Shown piece by piece: positions 1 through 63,006 of a stretch of DNA of 64,000 bases; the first letter of the stretch is position 1; every line of letters begins with the position of its first letter. The stretch comes from Flectonema sp. DT1601 (lineage: Eukaryota > Euglenozoa > Diplonemea > Diplonemida > Diplonemidae), in the NCBI GenBank assembly GCA_964019425.1, contig OZ025855.1, positions 496,001 through 560,000 of the forward strand, read 5' to 3'. A model generated the notes under the pieces. The model did no database searches. It was not told the origin of the DNA and worked only from the letters and a program-made list of their open reading frames with translations. Both the position numbers and the translations under genes were made by a program.

Positions 1-3000
1 GACAATCGCCCCTATACCTATACGATGCCCGAAAGGGTAAATGGTAAACACCTCGAGTCCAGCCTGATTGTTGAAACCTTCTGCTCTGTTTGAACTGCTT
101 CACTTTATGTTCTCAAGGAGTATTGCACGCCGCCTCCGACCTCACCCATTTGGAGTGATAACGGTGACTTGTCCTCTCCAAGACTTCATCTTCTTCAAAT
201 CCTTTTGCTTGTCAATGAAATAGCCAGCATTATAGAACAATCGAATCCTCGGTAGCAATGCGCTGCATTCTCCAAATCTTGTGATGAATAATACTAATTC
301 CGTGTTTCACATGAATACCTTGTGAGTTAGAAAATTGTATTTCGGGTTCCAAGCTGATTGATACTACTTATTGCCTTCATAACAACACGATCAACAATAT
401 GATGACACAACAAGCTACTACTTGGACAATCGCCCCTATACCTATACGATGCCCGAAAGGGTAAATGGTAAACACCTCGAGTCCAGCCTGATTGTTGAAA
501 CCTTCTGCTCTGTTTGAACTGCTTCACTTTATGTTCTCAAGGAGTATTGCACGCCGCCTCCGACCTCACCCATTTGGAGTGATAACGGTGACTTGTCCTC
601 TCCAAGATATGTTTCTCTTGTTCCAACTCATCATATCCGGAAACAACTCCACGGTTGCTCTCCTTAATTAATGGAGATGGTTATCACCAGACCCCCGGTA
701 GATTCACTTCCCTCTCTTCTCTTTTGTTCTCATCGTTCTCAAGGAGTATTGCACGCCGCCTCCGACCTCACCCATTTGGAGTGATAACGGTGACTTGTCC
801 TCTCCAAGACTTTGATAATTTCAAGAGCCGCAATCTACTTACGAAAATAAGAATACCATTCGGTCGCAATGGTTGGGAGGCACCCTCTTTCAAATGGTGC
901 AAAGCTCCCCGCTGGTCGTACCGTATAGCAAGTTGATAGGGTTCTTCGGGACCTTGTCATGTTACGTATATTCCATATTCCAACTTCTATGCTCAGTTGG
1001 GCTATTATGAAGTTTGGGACAACCATGCGTGATACAGTTTCTTGTTCTTCATCTTTTCTGTTGGAAAGAGGAAGAGTTCTGTCTTTCATTTTCTGTTTGG
1101 TCAGCGAGCTCAGTTCCCCGCCTGTTCTTTGTTACTGAACTGAGTGGGAGTTATGTTACGCGAGATTATATCTTCCTTCTTATGACTTCCCTTCGTGTTC
1201 TCAAGAAGAGTCATCTGTCTATTCCTCACCTCCCTCTCTCACAGTAAGGATGATTTTAACCGACTCCTGAGTAGCTTTTCGCTGCATTGCAGATACTGAT
1301 ACGAGTCAAAAGTGCAGGATCAACCACCTGAACAAATTCTGTTTGTCTTCTCGTTTGAGCTTCTTCATAAGGAGTATTGCACGCCGCCTCCGACCTCACC
1401 CATTTGGAGTGATAACGGTGACTTGTCCTCTCCAAGATTTTCTGGATTCCTGAGAGCTGTTCATTCGTCTTGCTGTCTTAACTTGAAGGTTGTTCCTCTC
1501 CACTTCTCTTCCTGAATCTTGTGATGAATAATACTAATTCCGTGTTTCACATGAATACCTTGTGAGTTAGAAAATTGTATTTCGGGTTCCAAGCTGATTA
1601 CTACTGCTTCCTGTTGTTGTGTCCGATATTTCCTTCCTGCTTAACTTCTTTGATAAATCGGTCGCAATGGTTGGGAGGCACCCTCTTTCAAATGGTGCAA
1701 AGCTCCCCGCTGGTCGTACCGTATAGCAAGTTGATAGGGTTCTTCGGGACCTTGTCATGTTACGTATATTCCATATTCCAACTTCTATGCTCAGTTGGGC
1801 TATTATGAAGTTTGGGACAACCATGCGTGATACAGTTTCTTGTTCTTCATCTTTTCTGTTGGAAAGAAGAAGAGTTCTGTCTTTCCTTTTCTGTTTGGTC
1901 AGCGAGCTCAGTTCCCCGCCTGTTCTTTGTTACTGAACTGAGTGGGAGTTATGTTACGCGAGATGTATAGAACAATTGAATCCTCGGTAGCAATGCGCTG
2001 CATTCTCCAAATCTTGTTATGAATAATACTAATTCCGTGTTTCACATGAATACCTTGTGAGTTAGAAAATTGTATTTCGGGTTCCAAGCTGATTGATATT
2101 ACTTATTGCCTTCATAACAACACGATCAACAATATGATGACACAACAAGCTACTACTTGGACAATCGCCCCTATACCTATACGATGCCCGAAAGGGTAAA
2201 TGGTAAACACCTCGAGTCCAGCCTGATTGTTGAAACCTTCTGCTCTGTTTGAACTGCTTCACTTTATGTTCTCAAGGAGTATTGCACGCCGCCTCCGACC
2301 TCACCTATTTGGAGTGATAACGGTGACTTGTCCTCTCCAAGATATGTTTCTCTTGTTCCAACTCATCATATCCGGAAACAACTCCACGGTTGCTCTCCTT
2401 AATTAATGGAGATGGTTATCACCAGACCCCCGGTAGATTCACTTCCCTCTCTTCTCTTTTGTTCTCATCGTTCTCAAGGAGTATTGCACGCCGCCTCCGA
2501 CCTCACCCATTTGGAGTGATAACGGTGACTTGTCCTCTCCAAGACTTCATCTTCTTCAAATCCTTTTGCTTGCCAATGAAATAGCCAGCATTATAGAACA
2601 ATCGAATCCTCGGTAGCAATACGCTGCATTCTCCAAATCTTGTGATGAATAATACTAATTCCGTGTTTCACATGAATACCTTGTGAGTTAGAAAATTGTA
2701 TTTCGGGTTCCAAGCTGATTACTACTGCTTCCTGTTGTTGTGTCTGATATTTCCTTCCTGCTTAACTTCTTTGATAAATCTGTCGCAATGGTTGGGAGGC
2801 ACCCTCTTTCAAATGGTGCAAAGCTCCCCGCTGGTCGTACCGTATAGCAAGTTGATAGGGTTCTTCGGGACCTTGTCATGTTACGTATATTCCATATTCC
2901 AACTTCTATGCTCAGTTGGGCTATTATGAAGTTTGGGACAACCATGCGTGATACACTTTCTTGTTCTTCATCTTCCTGGAAGGAAGACTTGTCTGTCTAT

Positions 3001-3691
3001 TCCTCACCTCCCTCTCTCACAGTAAGGATGATTTTAACCGACTCCTGAGTAGCTTTTCGCTGCATTGCAGATACTGATACGAGTCAAAAGTGCAGGATCA
3101 ACCACCTGAACAAATTCTGTGTCTTCTGTTTGCCTTCTCGTTTGAACTGTCTTCTGCCTTGAGCTTCTTCGTAAGGAGTATTGCACGCCGCCTCCGACCT
3201 CACCCATTTGGAGTGATAACGGTGACTTGTCCTCTCCAAGACTTCGATAATTTATTGTTCAGATTTCCAACTCGGTCGCAATGGTTGGGAGGCACCCTCT
3301 TTCAAATGGTGCAAAGCTCCCCGCTGGTCGTACCGTATAGCAAGTTGATAGGGTTCTTCGGGACCTTGTCATGTTACGTATATTCCATATTCCAACTTCT
3401 ATGCTCAGTTGGGTTATTATGAAGTTTGGGACAACCATGCGTGATACAGTTTCTTGTTCTGCATCTTTTCTGTTGGAAAGAAGAAGAGTTCTGTCTTTCC
3501 TTTTCTGTTTGGTCAGCGAGCTCAGTTCCCCGCCAGTTCTTTGTTACTGAACTGAGTGGGAGTTATGTTACGCGAGATTATATCTTCCTTCTTATGACTT
3601 CCCTTCCTGCCTTGTTGTTCTCAAGGAGTATTGCACGCCGCCTCCGACCTCACCCATTTGGAGTGATAACGGTGACTTGTCCTCTCCAAGA
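1..3691 (+). repeat. Mosaic repeat array 1 (cut by window start)
   Basis: The array is a chain of shared modules, all in the same orientation. Module names used here: K, 69-bp hub starting AAGGAGTATTGCACG and ending CTCTCCAAGA; A, starting near GACAATCGCCCCTATACC; B, CTTCATCTTC to CCAAGCTGATT; C, 133 bp starting TATGTTTCTC; D, starting CTTTGATAATTTC; E, starting CGGTCGCAATGG; F, starting CTGTTGGAAAG; G, containing CTCACAGTAAGGATG; H, starting TTTTCTGGATTCC; I, starting ACTACTGCTTCC. The order here is A-K-B-A-K-C-K-D-E-F-G-K-H-B'-I-E-F-B-A-K-C-K-B-I-E-G-K-D'-E-F-K. K copies start at 115, 539, 741, 1369, 2274, 2476, 3173 and 3623. The right end falls exactly at the end of a K copy, followed by unique DNA at 3692. 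No gene is credible inside; the short open frames repeat in every array and conflict across frames and strands. Confidence 0.93.
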
Positions 3692-4910: not shown

Positions 4911-5037
4911 ACACCAACCCCCTGAAGAAAGAATATTGCTGATGTAAAAAATAACATTTTTTCTATCCCAAAAACTACTTTATCATTTTATTGAATTTAT
5001 TTTTCCTCCAAAAGGTACTGTCACAAAGACATGAACC
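4258..5037. other. Intergenic spacer with long A runs
   Basis: No gene seen. It contains two A-rich tracts (about 4750-4785 and 4880-4909) and an A/T-rich 3' half. The last 25 bases hold a pyrimidine run (TTTTTCCTCC) and an AG at 5013-5014, a likely processing site for the next gene. Confidence 0.7.
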
Positions 5038-36539: not shown

Positions 36540-37504
36540 TCTCCAAATCTTGTGATGAATAATACTAATTCCGTGTTTCACATGAATACCTTGTGAGTTA
36601 GAAAATTGTATTTCGGGTTCCAAGCTGATTGATACTACTTATTGCCTTCATAACAACACGATCAACAATATGATGACACAACAAGCTACTACTTGGACAA
36701 TCGCCCCTATACCTATACGATGCCCGAAAGGGTAAATGGTAAACACCTCGAGTCCAGCCTGATTGTTGAAACCTTCTGCTCTGTTTGGACTGCTTCACTT
36801 TATGTTCTCAAGGAGTATTGCACGCCGCCTCCGACCTCACCCATTTGGAGTGATAACGGTGACTTGTCCTCTCCAAGATATGTTTCTCTTGTTCCAACTC
36901 ATCATATCCGGAAACAACTCCACGGTTGCTCTCCTTAATTAATGGAGATGGTTATCACCAGACCCCCGGTAGATTCACTTCCCTCTCTTCTCTTTTGTTC
37001 TCATCGTTCTCAAGGAGTATTGCACGCCGCCTCCGACCTCACCCATTTGGAGTGATAACGGTGACTTGTCCTCTCCAAGACTTCATCTTCTTCAAATCCT
37101 TTTGCTTGTCAATGAAATAGCCAGCATTATAGAACAATCGAATCCTCGGTAGCAATGCGCTGCATTCTCCAAATCTTGTGATGAATAATACTAATTCCGT
37201 GTTTCACATGAATACCTTGTGAGTTAGAAAATTGTATTTCGGGTTCCAAGCTGATTGATACTACTTATTGCCTTCATAACAACACGATCAACAATATGAT
37301 GACACAACAAGCTACTACTTGGACAATCGCCCCTATACCTATACGATGCCCGAAAGGGTAAATGGTAAACACCTCGAGTCCAGCCTGATTGTTGAAACCT
37401 TCTGCTCTGTTTGAACTGCTTTACTTTATGTTCTCAAGGAGTATTGCACGCCGCCTCCGACCTAACCCATTTGGAGTGATAACGGTGACTTGTCCTCTCC
37501 AAGA

Positions 37505-37679
37505 CTTTTGATAATTTATTATTCAGATCGCAGGGATCGACTTTTTGTTTAAAGACCCCAACTGTTTCAACTTGCAGTACCTCACTCAGTGGTATAGCGA
37601 GCGGATGAAGGGGGAGATCACTTTCTATTACTTCGACAAAGAGAACCTTCTGTCTTTGTCAATCCCTCTCTCACAGTAA
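37505..37679 (+). repeat. Module J, copy 1: coding-like unit in array 2
   Basis: After an acceptor-like TTATTATTCAG, the + strand is open for 50 codons (37527-37679), beginning IAGIDFLFKDPNC and ending LSLSIPLSQ. The composition is that of a normal globular protein (QYLTQWYSERMKGEITFYYF). I do not recognise it. Further copies lie at 39629-39803, 53387-53561 and, altered, 61547-61691. Confidence 0.75.
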
Positions 37680-39628
37680 GGATGATTTTAACCGACTCCT
37701 GAGTAGCTTTTCGCTGCATTGCAGATACTGATACGAGTCAAAAGTGCAGGATCAACCACCTGAACAAATTCTGTGTCTTCTGTTTGCCTTCTCGTTTGAG
37801 CTGTCTTCTGCCTTGAGCTTCTTCATAAGGAGTATTGCACGCCGCCTCCGACCTCACCCATTTGGAGTGATAACGGTGACTTGTCCTCTCCAAGATTTTC
37901 TGGATTCCTGAGAGCTGTTCATTCGTCTTGCTGTCTTAACTTGAAGGTTGTTCCTCTTCACTTCTCTTCCTGCATCTTGTGATGAATAATACTAATTCCG
38001 TGTTTCACATGAATACCTTGTGAGTTAGAAAATTGTATTTCGGGTTCCAAGCTGATTGATACTACTTATTGCCTTCATAACAACACGATCAACAATATGA
38101 TGACACAACAAGCTACTACTTGGACAATCGCCCCTATACCTATACGATGCCCGAAAGGGTAAATGGTAAACACCTCGAGTCCAGCCTGATTGTTGAAACC
38201 TTCTGCTCTGTTTGAACTGCTTCACTTTATGTTCTCAAGGAGTATTGCACGCCGCCTCCGACCTCACCCATTTGGAGTGATAACGGTGACTTGTCCTCTC
38301 CAAGATGTGTTTCTCTTGTTCCAACTCATCATATCCGGAAACAACTCCACGGTTGCTCTCCTTAATTAATGGAGATGGTTATCACCAGACCCCCGGTAGA
38401 TTTACTTCCCTCTCTTCTCTTTTGTTCTCATCATTCTCAAGGAGTATTGCACGCCGCCTCCGACCTAACCCATTTGGAGTGATAACGGTGACTTGTCCTC
38501 TCCAAGACTTCATCTTCTTCGAATCCTTTTGCTTGTCAATGAAATAGCCAGCATTATAGAACAATCGAATCCTCGGTAGCAATGCGCTGCATTCTCCAAA
38601 TCTTGTGATGAATAATACTAATTCCGTGTTTCACATGAATACCTTGTGAGTTAGAAAATTGTATTTCGGGTTCCAAGCTGATTACTACTGCTTCCTGTTG
38701 TTGTGTCCGATATTTCCTTCCTGTTTCACTTCTTTGATAAATCTGTCGCAATGGTTGGGAGGCACCCTCTTTCAAATGGTGCAAAGCTCCCCGCTGGTCG
38801 TACCGTATAGCAAGTTGATAGGGTTCTTCGGGACCTTGTCATGTTACGTATATTCCATATTCCAACTTCTATGCTCAGTTGGGCTATTATGAAGTTTGGG
38901 ACAACCATGCGTGATACAGTTTCTTGTTCTTCATCTTTTCTGTTGGAAAGAAGAAGAGTTCTGTCTTTCCTTTTCTGTTTGGTCAGCGAGCTCAGTTCCC
39001 CGCCTGTTCTTTGTTACTGAACTGAGTGGGAGTTATGTTACGCGAGATGTATAGAACAATCGAATCCTCGGTAGCAATATGCTGCATTCTCCAAATCTTG
39101 TGATGAATAATACTAATTCCGTGTTTCACATGAATACCTTGTGAGTTAGAAAATTGTATTTCGGGTTCCAAGCTGATTGATATTACTTATTGCCTTCATA
39201 ACAACACGATCAACAATATGATGACACAACAAGCTACTACTTGGACAATCGCCCCTATACCTATACGATGCCCGAAAGGGTAAATGGTAAACACCTCGAG
39301 TCCAGCCTGATTGTTGAAACCTTCTGCTCTGTTTGAACTGCTTCACTTTATGTTCTCAAGGAGTATTGCACGCCGCCTCCGACCTCACCCATTTGGAGTG
39401 ATAACGGTGACTTGTCCTCTCCAAGATATGTTTCTCTTGTTCCAACTCATCATATCCGGAAACAACTCCACGGTTGCTCTCCTTAATTAATGGAGATGGT
39501 TATCACCAGACCCTCGGTAGATTCACTTCCCTCTCTTCTCTTTTGTTCTCATCGTTCTCAAGGAGTATTGCACGCCGCCTCCGACCTAACCCATTTGGAG
39601 TGATAACGGTGACTTGTCCTCTCCAAGA

Positions 39629-39803
39629 CTTTTGATAATTTATTATTCAGATCGCAGGGATCGACTTTTTGTTTAAAGACCCCAACTGTTTCAACTTGCA
39701 GTACCTCACTCAGTGGTATAGCGAGCGGATGAAGGGGGAGATCACTTTCTATTACTTCGACAAAGAGAACCTTCTGTCTTTGTCTATCCCTCTCTCACAG
39801 TAA
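39629..39803 (+). repeat. Module J, copy 2
   Basis: Near-identical to copy 1, with the same 50-codon open frame (39651-39803) after a K hub of the CCTAACCC type, and again followed by module G. Confidence 0.75.
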
Positions 39804-41089
39804 GGATGATTTTAACCGACTCCTGAGTAGCTTTTCGCTGCATTGCAGATACTGATACGAGTCAAAAGTGCAGGATCAACCACCTGAACAAATTCTGTGT
39901 CTTCTGTTTGCCTTCTCGTTTGAGCTGTCTTCTGCCTTGAGCTTCTTCATAAGGAGTATTGCACGCCGCCTCCGACCTCACCCATTTGGAGTGATAACGG
40001 TGACTTGTCCTCTCCAAGATATGTTTCTCTTGTTCCAACTCATCATATCCGGAAACAACTCCACGGTTGCTCTCCTTAATTAATGGAGATGGTTATCACC
40101 AGACCCCCGGTAGATTCACTTCCCTCTCTTCTTTTTTGTTCGCATCGTTCTCAAGGAGTATTGCACGCCGCCTCCGACCTAACCCATTTGGAGTGATAAC
40201 GGTGACTTGTCCTCTCCAAGATTTTCTGGATTCCTGAGAGCTGTTCATTCGTCTTGCTGTCTTAACTTGAAGGTTGTTCCTCTTCACTTCTCTTCCTGAA
40301 TCTTGTGATGAATAATACTAATTCCGTGTTTCACATGAATACCTTGTGAGTTAGAAAATTGTATTTCGGGTTCCAAGCTGATTACTACTGCTTCCTGTTG
40401 TTGTGTCCGATATTTCCTTCCTGTTTCACTTCTTTGATAAATCGGTCGCAATGGTTGGGAGGCACCCTCTTTCAAATGGTGCAAAGCTCCCCGCTGGTCG
40501 TACCGTATAGCAAGTTGATAGGGTTAAGGACCTTGTCATGTTACGTATATTCCATATTCTAACTTCTATGCTCAGTTGGGCTATTATGAAGTTTGGGACA
40601 ACCATGCGTGATACAGTTTCTTGTTCTTCGTCTTCCTGGAAGGAAGACTTGTCTGTCTATTCCCCACCTCCCTCTCTCACAGTAAGGATGATTTTAACCG
40701 ACTCCTGAGTAGGTTTTCGCTGCATTGCAGATACTGATACGAGTCAAAAGTGCAGGATCAACCACCTGAACAAATTTTGCTTGTCTTCTCGTTTGAGCTG
40801 TCTTCTGCCTTGAGCTTCATAAGGAGTATTGCACGCCGCCTCCGACCTCACCCATTTGGAGTGATAACGGTGACTTGTCCTCTCCAAGACTTCGATATTT
40901 AATTGTTCGTTTTCCAACTTGGTCGCAATGGTTGAGAGACACCCTCTTTCAAAAGGTTGTGCCGTATTTCGAGTTCCAAGCTGATTGATACTTTGCTGTT
41001 GTAAAACGTCCTCCGATTTGTTCACTTTAGACATTCTATTCGGCTTAGTATTGTCTTTACATATGCTGTGCTATGATTATTTAATTCTC

Positions 41090-41091
41090 AG
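41090..41091 (+). promoter_or_regulatory. Probable trans-splice acceptor AG (eL32 copy 3)
   Basis: TTATTTAATTCTCAG lies 20 nt before the ATG. The leader differs from that of copies 1 and 2. Confidence 0.6.
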
Positions 41092-41111: not shown

Positions 41112-41637
41112 ATGGTTCGCGTTGTCAAGAAGAAGGTTAACAGGTTCAAGAGACATCACTCTGACAGACACTGCAGAGTTAAGGAGAGCTGGAGAAAGCC
41201 AAAGGGTATTGATTCCGTCGTTCGTCGTAGATGGAGAGGACAGATCAAGATGGCTAACATCGGGTTTGGAAACGCCAAGATCACCCGTAACGTTCACCCT
41301 GATGGTCTAAAGCACTTCAACATCAACTGTGAGAAGGTTTGTAATACTTTTTAATTGTTGTTAATATTTATATCATATTTTGGGTCTTCATGTCAAGCCT
41401 TGTTTTTTACCCCTCTTTAAGTGGAAGGAAGCGACTGTGTGTGAGAGTTTGAGTATATGTCAACAAAAAAAACAGGACCTTGAGCTCCTCCTCATGCACA
41501 ACACTAAGTACGCTGCCGTCATCGGAACTAAGATCGGACAGAGAGTTCGTACTGCCATCCTTACCCGTGCCAAGGAACTTGACATCAAGGTTGTCAACGG
41601 AAAGGCCAAGGTACGCAAGGAGGAAGACGAACAGTAA
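41112..41637 (+). CDS. RPL32: Ribosomal protein eL32, copy 3 (two exons)
   Basis: Exons 41112-41336 and 41476-41637, 128 aa, same product. The 139-nt intron matches that of copy 1 with a few differences (for example GCCTTG against AACTTTG), so copy 3 is the duplicate of copy 1, while the 5' leader is unrelated. Exon 1 is identical to the other copies. Confidence 0.97.
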
Positions 41638-48189: not shown

Positions 48190-50698
48190 ATGGCCAAGGG
48201 ATACGTACCAAAGGGAAGACAGGACCGTAAGCGTTCCGAAACCGCTGTCATTGACACCACCATCCACATGCACAAGTACATGAAGGGTCGTACTTTCAAG
48301 AAGAGAGCCCCATTCGCCGCCAAGGTTGTTCGTAAGATCGCTAAGCAGATCATGGGAACCACTGACAACAGAATTGAGGTTAGGTTGAACAAGGCCATCT
48401 GGTCAAAGGGAATTAAGGGATGCCCAACCAGAATCCGTGTCCGTTTGGAGCGTAAGAGAAACGAGGACGAGGACGCCAAGCAGCCATTGTACACCGTATG
48501 TCACCCTTTTTCATTTTTCACACGCGTTTGCACATTTCCAACTCGGTCGCAATGGTTGGGAGGCACCCTCTTTCAAATGGTGCAAAGCTCCCCGCTGGTC
48601 GTACCGTATAGCAAGTTGATAGGGTTCTTCGGGACCTTGTCATGTTACGTATATTCCATATTCCAACTTCTATGCTCAGTTGGGCTATTATGAAGTTTGG
48701 GACAACCATGCGTGATACAGTTTCTTGTTCTTCATCTTTTCTGTTGGAAAGAAGAAGAGTTCTGTCTTTCCTTTTCTGTTGATTACAATAACAATATGAT
48801 GACACAACAAGCTACTACTTGGACAATCGCCCCTATACCTATACGATGCCCGAAAGGGTAAATGGTAAACACCTCGAGTCCAGCCTGATTGTTTGCTCTG
48901 TTCCACTCCATCACATCAAGGAGTATTGCACGCCGCCTCCGACCTCACCCATTTGGAGTGATAACGGTGACTTGTCCTCTCCAAGATATGTTTCTCTTGT
49001 TCCAACTCATCATATCCGGAAACAACTCCACGGTTGCTCTCCTTAATTAATGGAGATGGTTATCACCAGACCCCCGGTAGATTCACTTCCCTCTCTTCTC
49101 TTTTGTTCTCATCGTTCTCAAGGAGTATTGCACGCCGCCTCCGACCTCACCCATTTGGAGTGATAACGGTGACTTGTCCTCTCCAAGACTTCATCTTCTT
49201 CAAATCCTTTTGCTTGTCAATGAAATAGCCAGCATTATAGAACAATCGAATCCTCGGTAGCAATGCGCTGCATTCTCCAAATCTTGTGATGAATAATACT
49301 AATTCCGTGTTTCACATGAATACCTTGTGAGTTAGAAAATTGTATTTCGGGTTCCAAGCTGATTACTACTGCTTCCTGTTGTTGTGTCCGATATTTCCTT
49401 CCTGTTTCACTTCTTTGATAAATCGGTCGCAATGGTTGGGAGGCACCCTCTTTCAAATGGTGCAAAGCTCCCCGCTGGTCGTACCGTATAGCAAGTTGAT
49501 AGGGTTCTTCGGGACCTTGTCATGTTACGTATATTCCATATTCCAACTTCTATGCTCAGTTGGGTTATTATGAAGTTTGGGACAACCATGCGTGATACAG
49601 TTTCTTGTTCTTCATCTTCCTGGAAGGAAGACTTGTCTGTCTATTCCTCACCTCCCTCTCTCACAGTAAGGATGATTTTAACCGACTCCTGAGTAGCTTT
49701 TCGCTGCATTGCAGATACTGATACGAGTCAAAAGTGCAGGATCAACCACCTGAACAAATTCTGTTTGCCTTCTTGTTTGAGCTGTCTTCTGACTTGAGCT
49801 TCTTCATAAGGAGTATTGCACGCCGCCTCCGACCTCACCCATTTGGAGTGATAACGGTGACTTGTCCTCTCCAAGATTTTCTGGATTCCTGAGAGCTGTT
49901 CATTCGTCTTGCTGTCTTAACTTGAAGGTTGTTCCTCTTCACTTCTCTTCCTGCATCTTGTGATGAATAATACTAATTCCGTGTTTCACATGAATACCTT
50001 GTGAGTTAGAAAATTGTATTTCGGGTTCCAAGCTGATTACTACTGCTTCCTGTTGTTGTGTCTGATATTTCATTCCTGCTTCACTTCTTTGATAAATCGG
50101 TCGCAATGGTTGGGAGGCACCCTCTTTCAAATGGTGCAAAGCTCCCCGCTGGTCGTACCGTATAGCAAGTTGATAGGGTTCTTCGGGACCTTGTCATGTT
50201 ACGTATATTCCATATTCCAACTTCTATGCTCAGTTGGGCTATTATGAAGTTTGGGACAACCATGCGTGATACAGTTTCTTGTTCTTCATCTTTTCTGTTG
50301 GAAAGAAGAAGAGTTCTGTCTTTCCTTTTCTGTTTGGTCAGCGAGCTCAGTTCCCCGCCTGTTCCTTGTTACTGAACTGAGTGGGAGTTATGTTACGCGA
50401 GATTATATCTTCCTTCTTATGACTTCCCTTCCTGCCTTGTTGTTCTCAAGGAGTATTGCACGCCGCCTCCGACCTCACCCATTTGGAGTGATAACGGTGA
50501 CTTGTCCTCTCCAAGATTTTCTTAATCGTTATAGTTTTGTACTGAATTATATTATATAGAAGTAAGTTATAGTAGAAAGATGACTGTGTTGAAAGAAAAA
50601 AAAAAAATAAACAAAATCAGGTTGCATCATACGTCAGACTTCCACGTGATGGATTCAAGGGTCTCTGCACCAAGGTTGTCAGCACTGACGAGGAATAG
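48190..50698 (+). CDS. RPL31: Ribosomal protein eL31, copy 1, with 2.1-kb repeat-filled intron
   Basis: Exons 48190-48495 and 50621-50698 join in phase 0 to give 127 aa. It follows eL31 throughout: IHMHKYMKGRTFKKRAP, the GTTDNRIEVRLNKAIWSKG block, RIRVRLERKRNEDED, then VASYVRLPRDGFKGL in exon 2. The intron (48496-50620) has a GTATGT donor and an AAAATCAG acceptor and consists mostly of mosaic array 3. It belongs to the 60S subunit, close to the exit tunnel. Codon use is highly biased, as for eL32. If the intron is not spliced the frame runs into repeat sequence, so expression depends on removing a large repetitive intron. Confidence 0.96.
48534..50522 (+). repeat. Mosaic repeat array 3 (inside eL31 copy 1 intron)
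   Basis: Module order: E-F'-A'-K-C-K-B-I-E-G-K-H-B'-I-E-F-K. K copies start at 48918, 49120, 49808 and 50448. It starts at ATTTCCAACTCGGTCGC, a junction also present in array 1 (about 3265), and ends just past a K copy. F' and A' are shortened forms (for example TGATTACAATAACAATATG) found otherwise only in array 4. Confidence 0.93.
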
Positions 50699-50770
50699 AA
50701 TTCTCTTTGTTTGTTCTTTTTTTTTGTAGTAATTTTTCAAAAAAATTTTAAAAAAAGAGTTAAGAGAAGG

Positions 50771-50797
50771 AGTAGTGACCTTATAGAGGTCACTACT
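50771..50797 (+). other. Hairpin in eL31 copy 1 downstream region
   Basis: AGTAGTGACCT and AGGTCACTACT pair perfectly around a 5-nt loop (TATAG), 73 nt after the stop codon. Absent downstream of eL31 copy 2. Confidence 0.7.
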
Positions 50798-51040
50798 GAC
50801 AACTACTAATGATATCAACTCTGATGTGGTGAGAGCAGTCTCGTATTCATTTGTTCTCAAAGCAGATCATAACATTATCTTACTAATGACAGGAAAACTT
50901 AAACTATGAAGTAGGGTATGAAATTACCCATATCAGTATAATGATGTACTAAGGAAAACAGTTTATAGTTGATTTAACTTAGTGTCTTACATAAGTAATC
51001 TGTGTTGTATGAAATATCTGTCTAATTATAGTCATCTTTC

Positions 51041-51042
51041 AG
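51041..51042 (+). promoter_or_regulatory. Probable trans-splice acceptor AG (eL31 copy 2)
   Basis: TAGTCATCTTTCAG lies 22 nt before the ATG at 51065. Confidence 0.6.
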
Positions 51043-51064
51043 GTTGCTCTACTTCATCACAAAA

Positions 51065-54000
51065 ATGGCCAAGGGATACGTACCAAAGGGAAGACAGGAC
51101 CGTAAGCGTTCCGAAACCGCTGTCATTGACACCACCATCCACATGCACAAGTACATGAAGGGTCGTACTTTCAAGAAGAGAGCCCCATTCGCCGCCAAGG
51201 TTGTTCGTAAGATCGCTAAGCAGATCATGGGAACCACTGACAACAGAATTGAGGTTAGGTTGAACAAGGCCATCTGGTCAAAGGGAATTAAGGGATGCCC
51301 AACCAGAATCCGTGTCCGTTTGGAGCGTAAGAGAAACGAGGACGAGGACGCCAAGCAGCCATTGTACACCGTATGTCAACCTTTTTCATTTTTCACACGC
51401 GTTTGCACATTTCCAACTCGGTCGCAATGGTTGGGAGGCACCCTCTTTCAAATGGTGCAAAGCTCCCCGCTGGTCGTACCGTATAGCAAGTTGATAGGGT
51501 TCTTCGGGACCTTGTCATGTTACGTATATTCCATATTCCAACTTCTATGCTCAGTTGGGCTATTATGAAGTTTGGGACAACCATGCGTGATACAGTTTCT
51601 TGTTCTGCATATTTTCTGTTGGAAAGAAGAAGAGTTCTGTCTTTCCTTTTCTGTTGATTACAATAACAATATGATGACACAACAAGCTACTACTTGGACA
51701 ATCGCCCCTATACCTATACGATGCCCGAAAGGGTAAATGGTAAACACCTCGAGTCCAGCCTGATTGTTTGCTCTGTTCCACTCCATCACATCAAGGAGTA
51801 TTGCACGCCGCCTCCGACCTCACCCATTTGGAGTGATAACGGTGACTTGTCCTCTCCAAGATATGTTTCTCTTGTTCCAACTCATCATATCCGGAAACAA
51901 CTCCACGGTTGCTCTCCTTAATTAATGGAGATGGTTATCACCAGACCCCCGGTAGATTCACTTCCCTCTCTTCTCTTTTGTTCTCATCGTTCTCAAGGAG
52001 TATTGCACGCCGCCTCCGACCTCACCCATTTGGAGTGATAACGGTGACTTGTCCTCTCCAAGACTTCATCTTCTTCAAATCCTTTTGCTTGTCAATGAAA
52101 TAGCCAGCATTATAGAACAATCGAATCCTCGGTAGCAATGCGATGCATTCTCCAAATCTTGTGATGAATAATACTAATTCCGTGTTTCACATGAATACCT
52201 TGTGAGTTAGAAAATTGTATTTCGGGTTCCAAGCTGATTACTACTGCTTCCTGTTGTTGTGTCCGGTATTTCCTTCCTGCTTCACTTCTTTATTAAATCG
52301 GTCGCAATGGTTGGGAGGCACCCTCTTTCAAATGGTGCAAAGCTCCCCGCTGGTCGTACCGTATAGCAAGTTGATAGGGTTCTTCGGGACCTTGTCATGT
52401 TACGTATATTCCATATTCCAACTTCTATGCTCAGTTGGGCTATTATGAAGTTTGGGACAACCATGCGTGATACAGTTTCTTGTTCTTCATCTTCCTGAAA
52501 GGAAGACTTGTCTGTCTATTCCTCACCTCCCTCTCTCACAGTAAGGATGGTTTTAACCGACTCCTGAGTAGCTTTTCGCTGCATTGCAGATACTGATACG
52601 AGTCAAAAGTGCAGGATCAACCACCTGAACAAATTCTGTGTCTTCTGTTTGCCTTCTCGTTTGAACTGTCTTCTGCTTTGAGCTTCTCCATAAGGAGTAT
52701 TGCACGCCGCCTCCGACCTCACCCATTTGGAGTGATAACGGTGACTTGTCCTCTCCAAGACTTCATCTTCTTCAAATCCTTTTGCTTGTCAATGAAATAG
52801 CCAGCATTATAGAACAATCGAATCCTCGGTAGCAATGCGATGCATTCTCCAAATCTTGTGATGAATAATACTAATTCCGTGTTTCACATGAATACCTTGT
52901 GAGTTAGAAAATTGTATTTCGGGTTCCAAGCTGATTGATACTACTTATTGCCTTCATAACAACACGATCAACAATATGATGACACAACAAGCTACTACTT
53001 GGACAATCGCCCCTATACCTATACGATGCCCGAAAGGGTAAATGGTAAACACCTCGAGTCCAGCCTGATTGTTGAAACCTTCTGCTCTGTTTGAACTGCT
53101 TCACTTTATGTTCTCAAGGAGTATTGCACGCCGCCTCCGACCTCACCCATTTGGAGTGATAACGGTGACTTGTCCTCTCCAAGATATGTTTTTCTTGTTC
53201 CAACTCATCATATCCGGAAACAACTCCACGGTTGCTCTCCTTAATTAATGGAGATGGTTATCACCAGATCCCCGGTAGATTCACTTCCCTCTCTTCTCTT
53301 TCGTTCTCATCGTTCAAAAGGAGTATTGCACGCCGCCTCCGACCTAACCCATTTGGAGTGATAACGGTGACTTGTCCTCTCCAAGACTTTTGATAATTTA
53401 TTATTCAGATCGCAGGGATCGACTTTTTGTTTAAAGACCCCAACTGTTTCAACTTGCAGTACCTCACTCAGTGGTATAGCGAGCGGATGAAGGGGGAGAT
53501 CACTTTCTATTACTTCGACAAAGAGAACCTTCTGTCTTTGTCAATCCCTCTCTCACATTAAGGATGATTTTAACCGACTCCTGAGTAGCTTTTCGCTGCA
53601 TTGCAGATACTGATACGAGTCAAAAGTGCAGGATCAACCACCTGAACAAATTCTGTGTCTTCTGTTTGCCTTCTCGTTTGAGCTGTCTTCTGCCTTGAGC
53701 TTCTTCATAAGGAGTATTGCACGCCGCCTCCGACCTAACCCATTTGGAGTGATAACGGTGACTTGTCCTCTCCAAGATATGTTTCTCTTGTTCCAACTCA
53801 TCATATCCGGAAACAACTCCACGGTTGCTCTCCTTAATTAATGGAGATGGTTATCACCAGACCCCCGGTAGATTCACTTCCCTCTCTTCTTTTTTGTTCG
53901 CATCGTTCTCAAGGAGTATTGCACGCCGCCTCCGACCTCACCCATTTGGAGTGATAACGGTGACTTGTCCTCTCCAAGATATGTTTCTCTTGTTCCAACT

Positions 54001-55234
54001 CATCATATCCGGAAACAACTCCACGGTTGCTCTCCTTAATTAATGGAGATGGTTATCACCAGACCCCCGGTAGATTCACTTCCCTCTCTTCTCTTTTGTT
54101 CTCATCGTTCTCAAGGAGTATTGCACGCCGCCTCCGACCTCACCCATTTGGAGTGATAACGGTGACTTGTCCTCTCCAAGACTTCATCTTCTTCAAATCC
54201 TTTTGCTTGACAATGAAATAGCCAGCATTATAGAACAATCGAATCCTCGGTAGCAATGCGCTGCATTCTCCAAATCTTGTGATGAATAATACTAATTCCG
54301 TGTTTCACATGAATACCTTGTGAGTTAGAAAATTGTATTTCGGGTTCCAAGCTGATTGATATTACTTATTGCCTTCATAACAACACGATCAACAATATGA
54401 TGACACAACAAGCTACTACTTGGACAATCGCCCCTATACCTATACGATGCCCGAAAGGGTAAATGGTAAACACCTCGAGTCCAGCCTGATTGTTGAAACC
54501 TTCTGCTCTGTTCGAACTGCTTCGCTTTATGTTCTCAAGGAGTATTGCACGCCGCCTCCGACCTCACCCATTTGGAGTGATAACGGTGACTTGTCCTCTC
54601 CAAGATTTTCTGGATTCCTGAGAGCTGTTCATTCGTCTTGCTGTCTTAACTTGAAGGTTGTTCCTCTTCACTTCTCTTCCAAGTTTGTCTGCGTCTTCGT
54701 TTCCAACAATACCACAGTGGGAAAAAACATGTTGAAAAATAAATCTTGTTTTAAATTTACTGTTGAAATACTCTGTAAACTGCCAAATACGGCTTCCAAG
54801 TCTCGTTTTTTGTTTTGTCCCCTCTTTTTCCAGTTCCATCAAATCACTGGAAGAGTCTGACACAAATAAAACTGACGCTTCTTCTGGCGGTTTATATCCT
54901 TAAAAAGTAAAACTCCGCTGGTCGTACCGTATAGCAAGTTGATAGGGTTCTTCAGGACCTTGTCATGTTACGTATATTCCATATTCCAACTTCTATGCTC
55001 AGTTGGGCTATTATGAAGTTTGGGACAACCATTCGTGATACAGTTTCTTGTTCTTCATCCTTTGAGTCGGGTCTTCTGAGTAGGTAACCAGTTTGGAATG
55101 AAAGAAATTTGGTAAAAAATTTTCTTTTAGAGTAGTAAGAAATTAAATTAAATCAGGTTGCATCATACGTCAGACTTCCACGTGATGGATTCAAGGGTCT
55201 CTGCACCAAGGTTGTCAGCACTGACGAAGAGTAG
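51065..55234 (+). CDS. RPL31: Ribosomal protein eL31, copy 2, with 3.8-kb repeat-filled intron
   Basis: Exons 51065-51370 and 55157-55234 join in phase 0 to give the same 127-aa protein as copy 1. The intron (51371-55156) has the same donor and a closely similar AAATCAG acceptor, but is longer because array 4 has extra modules. The first ~1.1 kb of gene and intron match copy 1 almost exactly, so the duplication included the array's left part; the right part differs. Confidence 0.96.
53387..53561 (+). repeat. Module J, copy 3
   Basis: Same 50-codon open frame as in array 2 (53409-53561), with one change near its end (CACATTAAGG in place of CACAGTAAGG). Confidence 0.75.
54606..54897 (-). mobile_element. 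LINE-type (non-LTR) retrotransposon fragment: RNase H domain
   Basis: Read on the - strand, one frame shows VLFVSDSSSDLMELE (the SDS..DL block with an active-site Asp), then an amphipathic helix, then HVFSHCGIVGNEDADKLGRE, the classical RNase H end of ingi/I/Jockey-type LINEs. The frame runs directly into module H, so H is the continuation of a LINE 3' coding region and the fragment is the parent from which H was cut. Only the C-terminal part of such an ORF is present; no reverse transcriptase or endonuclease region is seen in the window. Confidence 0.75.
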
Positions 55235-56672: not shown

Positions 56673-57718
56673 ATGGCTGACCAAGTGCAAAAAATATCAT
56701 CCGAGAGGCAACGAAAGAGAGGTGTTTCATTTAAACAGGAATATCAAGGAGGGGCAGGTAGAGTAAAGGGAAGAGCAAGGGCACCGTCTATGCTTCACGA
56801 GCCTACAAAGCACATGATTCCACCACAGGCGAAAGCAGACAAAGGTAAATACACCGTAGTATTCGATCTTGATGAGACACTTATCTACGCGAGAGAGGGT
56901 CCACTCTACGCACGTCCAGGACTCGATGAATTATTCGACACGGTTAGAGACAGTGTAGAAGCTCTAGTCTGGACTGCTGGGCTTCGTGCCTACGCACAGG
57001 TATGACATGTTTGCTTTAATCTAACATATTACAATGTGAAATAATTCTTTTTTTTTTTTTTTTTTTTTTTAAAAATTTCCCAAACAGGCGATCATAAAGA
57101 ATATCGACAAAACTAATGCCATCAAGCACTGCGTTTACCGGCATGCGAAGTGGTTTACTGGTCAGGTGTGTTTTTGTGTTTTAGTTTGAATTATTTTATT
57201 TGAGTAAGACACCTCAATAATATAACTACCAACAGGCCGGATATCGTAAAGATTTAGGTGTTCTTGGACGTGATTTAGATAGGACTATCATTATTGAAAA
57301 TACCCCCGACTGCATTAGAGGGTACGTTACTTTATATTTTAGTATTAACGTTTATCTACACATCAACACCATAATAAACAATAATCACAGTTATCAACAA
57401 AACGGAATCCTAGTAACTGACTACGAAGGTGGTGAGATGCCTGACTTTACTATTCCTGCTTTGAATGAATTTATTAAAAAGCTAATTGAGTCTGGTCTTA
57501 CTGTATGTGTTTGTTTTATTACAAGATTCCTTAGCAATTAGTAAGGAAATAAGAGCTATATATCCAAACAGGTTCCACAATACATCACATCATCATCGAT
57601 GCTTGTGAGAGCTCCTATTCAAACTGATACTGGTGATTTCATTCAGTGTTACACATTGAACATTAACACATGGAAACCTGAAGGATGGTCACGTAATAAT
57701 AGAGACTTAAATCGCTAA
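56673..57718 (+). CDS. FCP1/SCP-type HAD phosphatase-fold protein, paralogue 1 (five exons)
   Basis: Exons 56673-56999, 57088-57165, 57236-57321, 57391-57502, 57572-57718 join without a stop to give 249 aa. Residues 1-60 are a basic Arg/Lys-rich leader (SSERQRKRGVSFKQEY). The FCP1-homology core follows: VVFDLDETLIYARE (DxDxT nucleophile), ARPGLDELFDTV, VWTAGLRAYAQ (motif II), GYRKDLGVLGRDL (catalytic Lys) and IIIENTPDC. The last motif is DNSP in SCP/FCP1 enzymes; here the metal-binding Asp is Glu. Such proteins dephosphorylate the Pol II CTD or other Ser/Thr sites, and the fold is also used by TIM50. Introns are 69-88 nt with GTATGA, GTGTGT, GTACGT and GTATGT donors. Confidence 0.88.
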
Positions 57719-59395: not shown

Positions 59396-62300
59396 ATGTC
59401 GGATGCGGATGTGCAGATACAAAAAATATCCTCTGAGAGGCAGAGGAAAAGAGGAATCTCCTTCAAACAAGAATACCAAGGGGCTCGGGCAAAGGGAAGA
59501 GCAAGGGCACCGTCTATGCTTCACGAGCCTACAAAGCACATGATTCCACCACAGGCGAAAGCAGACGAAGGTAAATACACCGTAGTATTCGATCTTGATG
59601 AGACACTTATCTACGCGAGAGAGGGTCCACTCTACGCACGTCCAGGACTCGACGACCTCTTCAGCACCGTCAGAGACAGTGTAGAAGCTCTAGTCTGGAC
59701 TGCTGGGCTTCGTGCCTACGCACAGGTATGTGATTTTTATTAAATATCTATATTCATAGTATTTTTTTCAAGAAAAATTATTATGGCTTTGTCTTTTATT
59801 TTTTTTTGAAAAAAACTATAAAATACAACTACTCGTTTGTTACATCTTAAAGTGAAATATCCGATCACAAAATAACCATCACATAGGCGATCATAAAGAA
59901 TATCGACAAAACTGGTGCCATCAAGCACTGCGTCTATCGGCATGCGAAGTGGTTCAGCGGACAGGTATGCTTATTCGTGTAGTGACACGCTGAGGTTTTG
60001 CAAAATTAAAAAAAAAAAAAAAAAAACTCACAGGCTGGATACCGTAAGGATTTGGGAGTTCTCGGTCGGGACCTGGACTACACAATAATGATAGAAAATA
60101 CCCCCGACTGCATTAGAGGGTACGTAACTTTATATTTTAGTATTAACGTTTATCTACACATCAACACCATAATAAACAATAATCACAGTTATCAACAAAA
60201 TGGAATCCTAGTAACTGACTACGAAGGTGGTGAGATGCCTGACTTTACTATTCCTGCTTTGAATGAATTTATTACAAAATTAATAGCGTCGAAGATGACC
60301 GTATGTATTTCAATGTTTCTTAGTATTATAAAATTCAGCCTATTTAGGGCATTGCAGTATTGTCCTTCCTGACTTCTTTCACATTAGCACTATCAACAAT
60401 TTGATGACACAACAAGCTACTACTTGGACAATCGCCCCTATACCTATACGATGCCCGAAAGGGTAAATGGTAAACACCTCGAGTCCAGCCTGATTGTTGA
60501 AACCTTCTGCTCTGTTCGAACTTCTTCACTTTATGTTCTCAAGGAGTATTGCACGCCGCCTCCGACCTCACCCATTTGGAGTGATAACGGTGACTTGTCC
60601 TCTCCAAGATTTTGATAATTTCAAGAGCCGCAATCTACTTACGAAAATAAGAATACCATTCGGTCGCAATGGTTGGGAGGCACCCTCTTTCAAATGGTGC
60701 AAAGCTCCCCGCTGGTCGTACCGTATAGCAAGTTGATAGGGTTCTTCGGGACCTTGTCATGTTACGTATATTCCATATTCCAACTTCTATGCTCAGTTGG
60801 GCTATTATGAAGTTTGGGACAACCATGCGTGATACAGTTTCTTGTTCTTCATCTTTTCTGTTGGAAAGAAGAAGAGTTCTGTCTTTCCTTTTCTGTTTGG
60901 TCAGCGAGCTCAGTTCCCCGCCTGTTCTTTGTTACTGAACTGAGTGGGAGTTATGTTACGCGAGATGTATAGAACAATCGAATCCTCGGTAGCAATGCGC
61001 TGCATTCTCCAAATCTTGTGATGAATAATACTAATTCCGTGTTTCACATGAATACCTTGTGAGTTAGAAAATTGTATTTCGGGTTCCAAGCTGATTGATA
61101 CTACTTATTGCCTTCATAACAACACGATCAACAATATGATGACACAACAAGCTACTACTTGGACAATCGCCCCTATACCTATACGATGCCCGAAAGGGTA
61201 AATGGTAAACACCTCGAGTCCAGCCTGATTGTTGAAACCTTCTGCTCTGTTTGAACTGCTTCACTTTATGTTCTCAAGGAGTATTGCACGCCGCCTCCGA
61301 CCTCACCCATTTGGAGTGATAACGGTGACTTGTCCTCTCCAAGATATGTTTCTCTTGTTCCAACTCATCATATCCGGAAACAACTCCACGGTTGCTCTCC
61401 TTAATTAATGGAGATGGTTATCACCAGACCCCCGGTAGATTCACTTCCCTCTCTTCTTTTTTGTTCTCATCGTTCTCAAGGAGTATTGCACGCCGCCTCC
61501 GACCTAACCCATTTGGAGTGATAACGGTGACTTGTCCTCTCCAAGACTTTTGATAATTTATTGTTCAGATCGCAGTGATCGACTTTTTGTTTAAAGACCC
61601 CAACTGTTTCAACTTGCAGTACCTCACTCAGTGGTATAGCGAGCGGATGAAGGGGGAGATCACTTTCTGTATTTTCTCTTTGTCGAAGTAACGTGTCTTC
61701 TGTTGTTGTTTATTCCTCATCTGCCCTCTCTCAAAGTAAGGATGATTTTAACCGACTCCTGAGTAGCTTTTCGCTGCATTGCAGATACTGATACGAGTCA
61801 AAAGTGCAGGATCAACCACCTGAACAAATTCTGTTTGTCTTCTCGTTTGAGCTGTCTTCTGACTTGAGCTTCTTCATAAGGAGTATTGCACGCCGCCTCC
61901 GACCTCACCCATTTGGAGTGATAACGGTGACTTGTCCTCTCCAAGACTTCATCTTCTTCGAATCCTTTTGCTTGTCAATGAAATAGCCAGCATTATAGAA
62001 CAATCGAATCCTCGGTAGCAATGCGCTGCATTCTCCAAATCTTGTGATGAATAATACTAATTCCGTGTTTCACATGAATACCTTGTGAGTTAGAAAATTG
62101 TATTTCGGGTTCCAAGCTGATTACTACTGCTTCCTGTTGTTGTGTCTGATATTTCCTTCCTGCTTCACTTCTTTGATAAATCGGTCGCAATGGTTGGGAG
62201 GCACCCTCTTTCAAATGGTGCAAAGCTCCCCGCTGGTCGTACCGTATAGCAAGTTGATAGGGTTCTTCGGGACCTTGTCATGTTACGTATATTCCATATT

Positions 62301-63006
62301 CCAACTTCTATGCTCAGTTGGGCTATTATGAAGTTTGGGACAACCATGCGTGATACAGTTTCTTGTTCTTCATCTTTTCTGTTGGAAAGAAGAAGAGTTC
62401 TGTCTTTCCTTTTCTGTTTGGTCAGCGAGCTCAGTTCCCCGCCTGTTCTTTGTTACTGAACTGAGTGGGAGTTATGTTACGCGAGATGTATAGAACAATT
62501 GAATCCTCGGTAGCAATGCGCTGCATTCTCCAAATCTTGTGATGAATAATACTAATTCCGTGTTTCACATGAATACCTTGTGAGTTAGAAAATTGTATTT
62601 CGGGTTCCAAGCTGATTGATACTACTTATTGCCTTCATAACAACACGATCAACAATATGATGACACAACAAGCTACTACTTGGACAATCGCCCCTATACC
62701 TATACGATGCCCGAAAGGGTAAATGGTAAACACCTCGAGTCCAGCCTGATTGTTGAAACCTTCTGCTCTGTTCGAACTGCTGATTTCTGATTCAATTTTG
62801 ATGTGTAATTTGGTTCCGAAATGTGCCTTTAGAATTGTATCACTAAAATAAATAAACAGGTTCCACAATACATCACATCATCCCCGATGCTTGTGAGAGC
62901 TCCTATTCAAACTGATACTGGTGATTTCATTCAGTGTTACACATTGAACATTAACACATGGAAGCCTGAAGGATGGTCACGTAATAATCGTGATCTTGCA
63001 CGTTAA
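59396..63006 (+). CDS. FCP1/SCP-type HAD phosphatase-fold protein, paralogue 2, with repeat-filled fourth intron
   Basis: Exons 59396-59725, 59887-59964, 60034-60119, 60189-60300 and 62860-63006 give 250 aa. Exon order and phases equal those of paralogue 1. Motifs: FDLDETL, VWTAGLRAYAQ, YRKDLGVLGRDL, MIENTPDC (again Glu in place of the last Asp). Intron 4 (60301-62859, 2.56 kb) holds mosaic array 5; in paralogue 1 the same intron is 69 nt. Parts of the two genes are identical (middle of exon 1, end of exon 3, intron 3, start of exon 4, most of exon 5) while other parts differ at many synonymous sites, a patchwork typical of gene conversion. Confidence 0.88.
60392..62781 (+). repeat. Mosaic repeat array 5 (inside paralogue 2 intron 4)
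   Basis: Module order: A-K-D-E-F-B-A-K-C-K-J'-G-K-B-I-E-F-B-A. K copies start at 60541, 61276, 61478 and 61878. Both ends lie within module A: it starts at ATCAACAATTTGATGACAC and stops inside the end of another A copy. Confidence 0.93.
61547..61691 (+). repeat. Module J, copy 4, with a 16-bp internal inversion
   Basis: Matches the other J copies up to GATCACTTTCT, then carries CTCTTTGTCGAAGTAA (61676-61691), the exact reverse complement of TTACTTCGACAAAGAG found at that place in the other copies. The sequence after it differs before module G resumes. Confidence 0.85.

Follow-up and report, generated by a model that had tools for sequence, protein, structure and literature searches.

Candidate small nucleolar RNA gene clusters of mosaic order, largely in predicted introns, of a diplonemid

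Introduction

The window analyzed here, a stretch of 64,000 nucleotides (nt) of the diplonemid Flectonema sp. DT1601, covers positions 496,001 to 560,000 of contig OZ025855.1 (here C76) in a genome of 89.5 Mb, and holds five arrays of short repeated blocks lying in or near genes that include two copies of eL31, a second copy of eL32, and NIF/HAD-type phosphatase paralogues. Two further arrays are found on the same contig. An earlier note, made from the sequence of the window alone, had described the five as combinatorial arrays of about ten modules arranged around a 69-bp hub (K), which were neither a plain satellite nor members of any named family. Judged from sequence features, the arrays are very probably mixed clusters of C/D and H/ACA-like small nucleolar RNA (snoRNA) genes of a euglenozoan, lying on the sense strand in spliced introns (five of seven arrays) or just upstream of an open reading frame (ORF; two of seven). 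The view that this is not a plain satellite is thereby upheld by the snoRNA features of most modules, whereas the absence of a named family no longer stands, because the modules correspond to snoRNA genes by their features, namely C/D boxes with guides, hairpins with AGA boxes, and an snR30-like block H.

Diplonemids rank among the most abundant protists of the sea (PMC10161547). In the literature searched, no description of diplonemid snoRNAs was found, as judged by title and abstract; neither snoRNA nor small nucleolar is mentioned in the main text of the Diplonema papillatum genome paper (PMC10161547), and the term small nucleolar occurs once in the available text of PMC9082867.

Organization of the Arrays and Their Host Genes

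The arrays were redescribed with 11 blocks defined in this analysis (K, A, CD1, CD2, CD3, D, G, H, I, J, and N), representative positions of which are collected in Table 1 together with the arrays and host introns. All 11 occur on the + strand only, both in the window and along the contig, and a recount of K in the window gave 36 copies on the + strand and none on the − strand (28 exact, eight with a single mismatch), in agreement with the number and the single orientation given earlier. The distances between successive K copies are 202 bp (12 times), 424 (four times), 391 (three times), and 697 (twice), with 400, 410, 450, 628, 640, 668, 688, 735, 905, and 919 occurring once each and one more, 1345, bridging two arrays; the spacings reported previously are thus all recovered, except that 632 should read 628. 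Across the seven arrays there are 57 K, 29 CD1, 23 CD2, 23 I, 18 A, 17 H, 16 J, 14 CD3, 10 G, 8 D, and 6 N blocks, with 4–12 K copies per array, and runs of 5–13 blocks are shared between arrays. The five spans first delimited do contain arrays, but the first extends to the left of the window, and those at 48534–50522 and 51409–55059 are housed in two separate introns.

Table 1. Arrays, host introns, and representative blocks in the window (positions counted from the first nucleotide of the window)
Feature	Position	Strand	Description
Array 1	1..3691, continues left to C76:494770	+	snoRNA array upstream of an ORF starting at ~3832; candidate intronic position
Array 2	36551..40889	+	snoRNA array upstream of eL32 copy 2; AG at 41090-41091, ATG at 41112; no upstream coding exon
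Intron of eL31 copy 1	48496..50620	+	Holds array 3; 2125 nt, GTATGT..CAG; joining 48190-48495 and 50621-50698 gives the complete eL31 frame
Intron of eL31 copy 2	51371..55156	+	Holds array 4; 3786 nt; protein identical to that of copy 1
Intron of NIF/HAD-type phosphatase copy 2	60301..62859	+	Holds array 5; 2559 nt; frame kept; Pfam NIF
Equivalent intron of phosphatase paralogue	57503..57571	+	69 nt, without array
CD1	36551..36630	+	C/D snoRNA candidate; C box GTGATGA, D box CTGA
CD2	36666..36765	+	C/D snoRNA candidate; ATGATGA..CTGA, terminal stem CAACAAT/ATTGTTG; antisense to LSU TGGGTATAGGGGCGA
CD3	37678..37770	+	C/D-type candidate, C box weak; guide GCAGGATCAACCA ends one nt upstream of CTGA and is antisense to SSU nt 5-17
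K (one of 36)	36810..36878	+	Single-hairpin H/ACA-like snoRNA candidate with AGA box; pocket GCAC / GACTTGTCC for SSU U610
A	36903..36976	+	Closing stem CCGG/CCGG, T-AGA-TTC; pocket ACTCCAC / ACCAG for SSU U1495
D	37526..37625	+	H/ACA-like candidate; hairpin CCCC..GGGGG-AGA-TCA in its 3' part
G	38983..39048	+	Single hairpin ending GCG-AGA; H/ACA-like candidate
H (LINE fragment of the earlier note)	38743..38921	+	U17/snR30 candidate; between the 5' and 3' hairpins, H box ATAGCA followed by an extra hairpin; ACA box with 3 nt after it; m1-like ATATTCCAT, m2-like CAACCAT
J and I	37081..37178	+	More variable stretch between K and CD1
N	37896..37956	+	Unclassified block
LSU and SSU, large- and small-subunit ribosomal RNA.

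The restriction of block order proposed earlier holds when set against chance. Among the 221 blocks of the seven arrays, 21 kinds of neighbor pair are observed, compared with a mean of 84.4 and a minimum of 74 in 2000 shuffles (an H of array 2 bearing insertions or deletions was added by hand, and a truncated H that follows the final N in array 4 was omitted). Blocks A, CD2, and CD3 lead to K in all 54 cases with a successor (18, 22, and 14, respectively), one further CD2 forming the end of an array. The successors of K itself, previously put at six or more, comprise six kinds (A, J, D, N, H, and K) in addition to the array end; K is nevertheless not a single hub, as CD1, H, and G branch as well.

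Five of the seven arrays lie within introns of coding sequences, and in each case the frame is preserved when the flanking exons are joined. The hosts are the two eL31 copies, the second copy of the NIF/HAD-type phosphatase, a UPF0014 protein, and a TPR-like protein, for which Pfam matches were obtained with UPF0014 (E 2e-37), NIF (E 3e-8), and TPR_12 (E 9e-5, below its cut-off). Of three donor positions tried for the TPR-like gene, that with a GT preserves the frame. The two eL31 copies (48190–55234) encode identical proteins, and the arrays in their introns begin with the same 11 blocks before diverging. The strand of the arrays is that of the host genes checked. On other contigs, inspection by eye places the first H copy of C46 after a GTATGT that follows a coding stretch and finds an apparent exon among the arrays of C53. 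In such an arrangement, the host pre-mRNA would be transcribed and spliced, and the snoRNAs would be cut from the excised introns or outrons.

Candidate C/D-Type Blocks

CD1, CD2, and CD3 are candidates for C/D snoRNAs, for which fibrillarin binding and methylation of the target would be predicted from the class. A C box RUGAUGA together with a D box CUGA is present in CD1 and CD2, and CD3, with GATGATT..CTGA, has a weak C box, so that two of the three carry the full pair. Complementarity to ribosomal RNA (rRNA) of at least about 10 nt is found beside a D or D' box in the C/D blocks, with guides of 11–15 bp in CD1–CD3; both CD1 and CD2 have a noncanonical D' box. CD1 is antisense to LSU TTGGGACCCGAAA before its D box and to LSU TGAAACACGGA before a D'-like ATGA.

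Guides were counted in four array regions as unbroken Watson–Crick complementarities of at least 11 pairs ending at most 2 nt from a CTGA. Three unique guides were obtained (in CD3, in one unit on C43, and in one on C53), all of 12–13 pairs and each one nt before CTGA, against an expectation of 0.25 from shuffled rRNA summed over the four regions, and none occurred in the three stretches of the window used as controls. If the position of the boxes is left out of account, the score of CD2 is reached by 1 of 300 shuffles and that of CD3 by 11 of 300. As 45 of 300 shuffles match the score of CD1, its assignment draws instead on its boxes and on a relative on C43 that is 86% identical and in which the guide TTCCGTGTTTCA is kept unchanged.

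Candidate H/ACA-Like Blocks

In trypanosomatids, the H/ACA-like RNA consists of a single hairpin with an AGA box and is encoded in mixed clusters repeated in the genome (PMC2613932). On the basis of predicted folds, K, G, and D look like guide RNA candidates of this kind, with an AGA box of the trypanosomatid type, and A does so less clearly. K folds into a single hairpin followed by AGA and, as judged by its fold and the edges of conservation, has the one hairpin of about 60–75 nt with an AGA box that is characteristic of euglenozoan H/ACA-like RNAs. Its 57 copies vary only at sites 29, 32, and 33, all of which are located in the apical loop.

A target scan with constrained stems and shuffled rRNA was adopted because an unconstrained scan did not separate real from shuffled RNAs. 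In this stem-constrained scan, K is predicted to pair with SSU GGACAAGTC-U610-G-GTGC, with AGA 15 nt away, and A with SSU CTGGT-U1495-G-GTGGAGT, with AGA 14 nt away. Their pocket scores are reached by none of 40 shuffles each and, in a larger run, by 9 of 400 (K) and 7 of 400 (A). A second K site, at SSU 1670, which had an equal score in the unconstrained scan, was dropped because its guide takes up the lower stem. The lowest-energy fold of G pairs part of its AGA, and the spliced leader is absent from the best three target candidates of D and of G.

Block H as a U17/snR30 Candidate

H is a unit of 177–179 nt with at least 41 matches in the genome, pieces included, and its features make it a strong candidate for U17/snR30. 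It folds into a hairpin-hinge-hairpin-tail structure with an H box and an ACA, the H box and tail having been held unpaired in the final fold; in the copy on C19, ACG takes the place of ACA. The known motifs of U17/snR30 are m1 AUAUUCCUA and m2 AAACCAU (PMC7601244). H resembles this RNA in its H/ACA fold, in the m1- and m2-like motifs at its 3' pocket, and in an ACA 3 nt from the 3' end, and differs from it in that its m1, ATATTCCAT, is two letters off AUAUUCCUA and its m2, CAACCAT, is one letter off AAACCAU. In the 3' pocket, ATTCCATA faces CAACC, and with the stem below included, the facing strands are ATATTCCAT and CAACCAT. The m1-like motif may pair over 8 nt with SSU 937–944 and the m2-like motif over 5 nt with SSU 976–980, both pairings being short; the rm1/rm2 sites of U17/snR30 belong to expansion segment ES6 of the 18S rRNA.

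No match of H to any Rfam U17/snR30 family was obtained, and a weak Rfam alignment was found to the trypanosome snoTBR17 (RF00294, E 0.7). A modification pocket does not exceed chance in either hairpin of H (scores attained in 20 of 40 and 34 of 40 shuffles), which agrees with an snR30 identity. In Trypanosoma brucei, a homologue of snR30 exists (PMC6411936).

The earlier label of H as a LINE fragment is not supported, since the 120-aa reverse-strand ORF through H (1567–1929) matches no Pfam family up to E 1; a LINE origin was rejected, as no reverse transcriptase or endonuclease family appears in this single reverse-strand ORF that was scanned. By eye, the flanks of H on C53 and of the first copy on C46 look unlike those on C76, and the flanks on C43 resemble some of those on C76. 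Block I is probably what is left of the start of a degraded H copy: a stretch on C19 at the position of I is 82% like H 1–45, and on C7 a J-like stretch runs, by eye, into a whole H.

Points Weighing against the snoRNA Assignment

Several observations weigh against reading the arrays as intronic snoRNA clusters. Regarding position, two of the seven arrays (those before eL32 copy 2 and before the ORF at ~3832) lie upstream of an ORF, which would place them in a 5' untranslated region intron or a trans-spliced outron, and no exons were recognized on both sides of the arrays on C43, C66, C19, and C7. No match at the Rfam gathering level was found in the window, permissive levels giving weak ones only, and J, I, and N are without recognizable snoRNA features. 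Among the C/D-type evidence, guides of at least 9 pairs number 2, 4, 1, and 1 in the four array regions against 0.65, 0.35, 1.46, and 0.51 in shuffles, and 2, 0, and 1 in the three control stretches; CD1 alone is not significant with box position ignored. As to the H/ACA-like blocks, the shuffle figures of K and A carry no correction for how many RNAs were tried, and when the stems are left unconstrained, shuffled RNAs attain equally high scores (6 of 15 match the 13.0 of K). The AGA and the closing stem are present in A, but its lowest-energy fold is branched inside. The target of D is weak, its score being reached by 7 of 200 shuffles, and no rRNA target was found for G, 40 of 200 shuffles reaching its score with a relaxed lower stem.

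Origin of the Mosaic Order

Arrays on other contigs have simpler orders, namely CD2-K-A-K-(J-like)-CD1-H on C19, CD2-K-A-K-H on C7, CD3-K-H and CD3-K-D on C66, and CD3-K-H on C46, and the block kinds of C19/C7 and of C66/C46 are intermixed on C76. For 52 of the 57 K copies, a near neighbor is present on both sides; with H after K scored as C66-type, 25 of these are flanked by C19-type blocks on both sides and one by C66-type blocks on both sides, 18 are mixed (10 in one direction and 8 in the other), and eight stand beside N or K. Two of the 18 mixed joins reach H via a 51-nt spacer unseen at C66, giving a stricter count of 16. Direct contacts between C19-type and C66-type blocks number 0 against 21.2 expected, when H, K, G, and N are treated as neutral.

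The sequences themselves also vary unevenly. Over the seven arrays, minority letters make up 35 of 14711 positions (0.24%) in seven RNA blocks (K, A, G, H, CD1, CD2, and CD3) and 76 of 5116 (1.49%) in spacers seen at least three times, so that the RNA blocks are 6.2 times less variable than the spacers; for blocks outside that sum, the values are 2.5% (D), 1.8% (I), 1.0% (J), and 0.27% (N). Spacers are common to the arrays of contig C76, and their divergence is 2.1% within arrays versus 2.4% between arrays.

These findings allow the proposal, which falls a little short of an even chance, that introns of unrelated genes over about 96 kb constitute one recombining snoRNA pool, in which exchange at K and at the snR30-like H, the snoRNAs common to two kinds of founding cluster, keeps the RNAs required for making ribosomes uniform and reshuffles them across hosts. 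The mosaic order would then have been produced by duplication and deletion of blocks together with ectopic homologous exchange from one intron to another, with RNAs present in several array types (K and H) providing the shared homology. Such exchange at K and H fits the join counts and the likeness of the spacers and is partly supported, the mechanism being inferred. The suggestion that K is an exchange point, made in the earlier note, accordingly survives in part: 18 of 52 K copies join the two block types, which never touch directly, but three observations stand against free exchange there. The upstream and downstream neighbors of K are dependent (permutation p 0.037), and the same test shows no dependence for CD1 and H (p 0.12 and 0.31, small samples); long block runs are shared; and C43 holds the 86% relative of CD1 beside part of CD3, so that the block types are not strictly apart everywhere. 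Given these three points, part of the order is attributable to plain block duplication.

The strongest alternative, whose probability may likewise be put at somewhat under one half, is that of ordinary repeated snoRNA clusters that arose by duplication and deletion from one ancestral order, with no exchange at K or H. The common runs of 5–13 blocks and the dependent K neighbors fit it, as does the CD1 relative beside part of CD3 on C43, and the 11 initial blocks shared by arrays 3 and 4 are as expected from duplication of eL31 together with its intron. It accounts less readily for the joining of C19/C7 and C66/C46 types at K in both directions and for spacers that are almost as alike between introns as within them. 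K site 29 likewise goes with the downstream block, being A in six of the eight copies that precede D versus 4 of the 33 that precede A or J (Fisher p 0.001); this site does not, however, trace the C66 type, because the A form is also found on C19 and the K of C66 is one base shorter, and to that extent duplication without exchange is again favored.

A different and rather improbable origin would be the spread of RNA units by retroposition of mature snoRNAs, with arrays formed afterwards. On C53 and C46, the H unit has RNA-like ends and is flanked by different sequence, and a lone spliced-leader sequence shortly before an ATG, together with many A/T runs, hints at reverse transcription; on the other hand, spacers are shared among the arrays of C76, and selection on the RNA with decay of the spacers would look alike.

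A novel satellite or composite transposon family exchanging at K, without cellular RNA function, can be regarded as very unlikely and was rejected, since the high copy number, the mosaic order, and a decayed K-H fragment outside any array (C8:439793-439984) that would suit it are set against rRNA guides beside D boxes, H/ACA pockets, 6.2-fold less variable RNA blocks, and the placement of all blocks of the contig on the + strand, that of the host genes checked.

Comparison with Known Systems

The snoRNA clusters of trypanosomatids resemble the present arrays in their mixture of C/D and H/ACA-like genes, in single hairpins with an AGA box, and in the repetition of the clusters (PMC2613932). They are described as polycistronic (PMC2613932), whereas five of the seven arrays here lie in cis-spliced introns of protein genes, and the mosaic order with 4–12 K copies per array is a further difference. 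The word intron is absent from the main text of PMC6411936.

Intronic snoRNA clusters of plants and animals hold several snoRNAs per intron, often in ribosomal-protein genes. Compared with these, the arrays described here are distinguished by RNAs of the AGA type, by many copies of one RNA, and by blocks that recur in the introns of genes unrelated to each other. Clusters that are mixed and repeated, and clusters within introns, are each known already, and neither their combination nor the mosaic order was described in the literature searched; the shuffled arrangement across introns appears to be new, while the type of gene is known. If the assignment is correct, snoRNA clusters of the trypanosomatid kind are housed in introns, and the arrays make it possible to read how clusters of this kind form, decay, and mix, and offer a test of exchange between the introns of unrelated genes.

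The genome of D. papillatum contains tandem spliced-leader RNA repeats, GT-AG cis introns, and an unfragmented 28S gene (PMC10161547), and the same three features are found here; its assembly is about 280 Mb (PMC10161547), versus 89.5 Mb for the present one. A contiguous 28S is reported for all nine diplonemids studied and for basal prokinetoplastids, and not for euglenids or metakinetoplastids (PMC9082867).

Genome Features and Related Arrays

The 28S gene of the present genome gives a full-length match, in a single piece, to the eukaryotic model. A spliced-leader pattern has 754 copies genome-wide against 0 for the reversed control, and the tandem repeats have periods of 623 and 610 among the matches listed. 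Lone spliced-leader sequences, one of them just 5' of an ATG (L040), also occur outside the tandem arrays and may mark retroposed mRNAs. The nearest solved structure to eL32 is entry 6zj3, from Euglena gracilis. The spliced leader, the unbroken 28S gene, and eL32 point to a euglenozoan, most likely a diplonemid, a prokinetoplastid being less probable. A tRNA scan gave no match. Gene-like long ORFs at 5035–47627 of the window are on the + strand, an arrangement like that of the polycistronic transcription units of euglenozoans, and numerous A and T runs lie between them.

Related arrays were observed elsewhere in the genome. The region C43:83592-97074, which has a 1189-bp period over part of its length, holds K, H, the CD1 relative, part of CD3, and more C/D-like units, one of which has a 12-nt guide to LSU 1360–1371. 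At C53:233001-243000, another array family contains H, hairpin-like units ending in CCCCGGTAGA, and C/D-like units starting with ATGATGATA, and includes a 12-nt guide to LSU 914–925. Further matches are located on C6, C11, and C88 and at two more places on C66.

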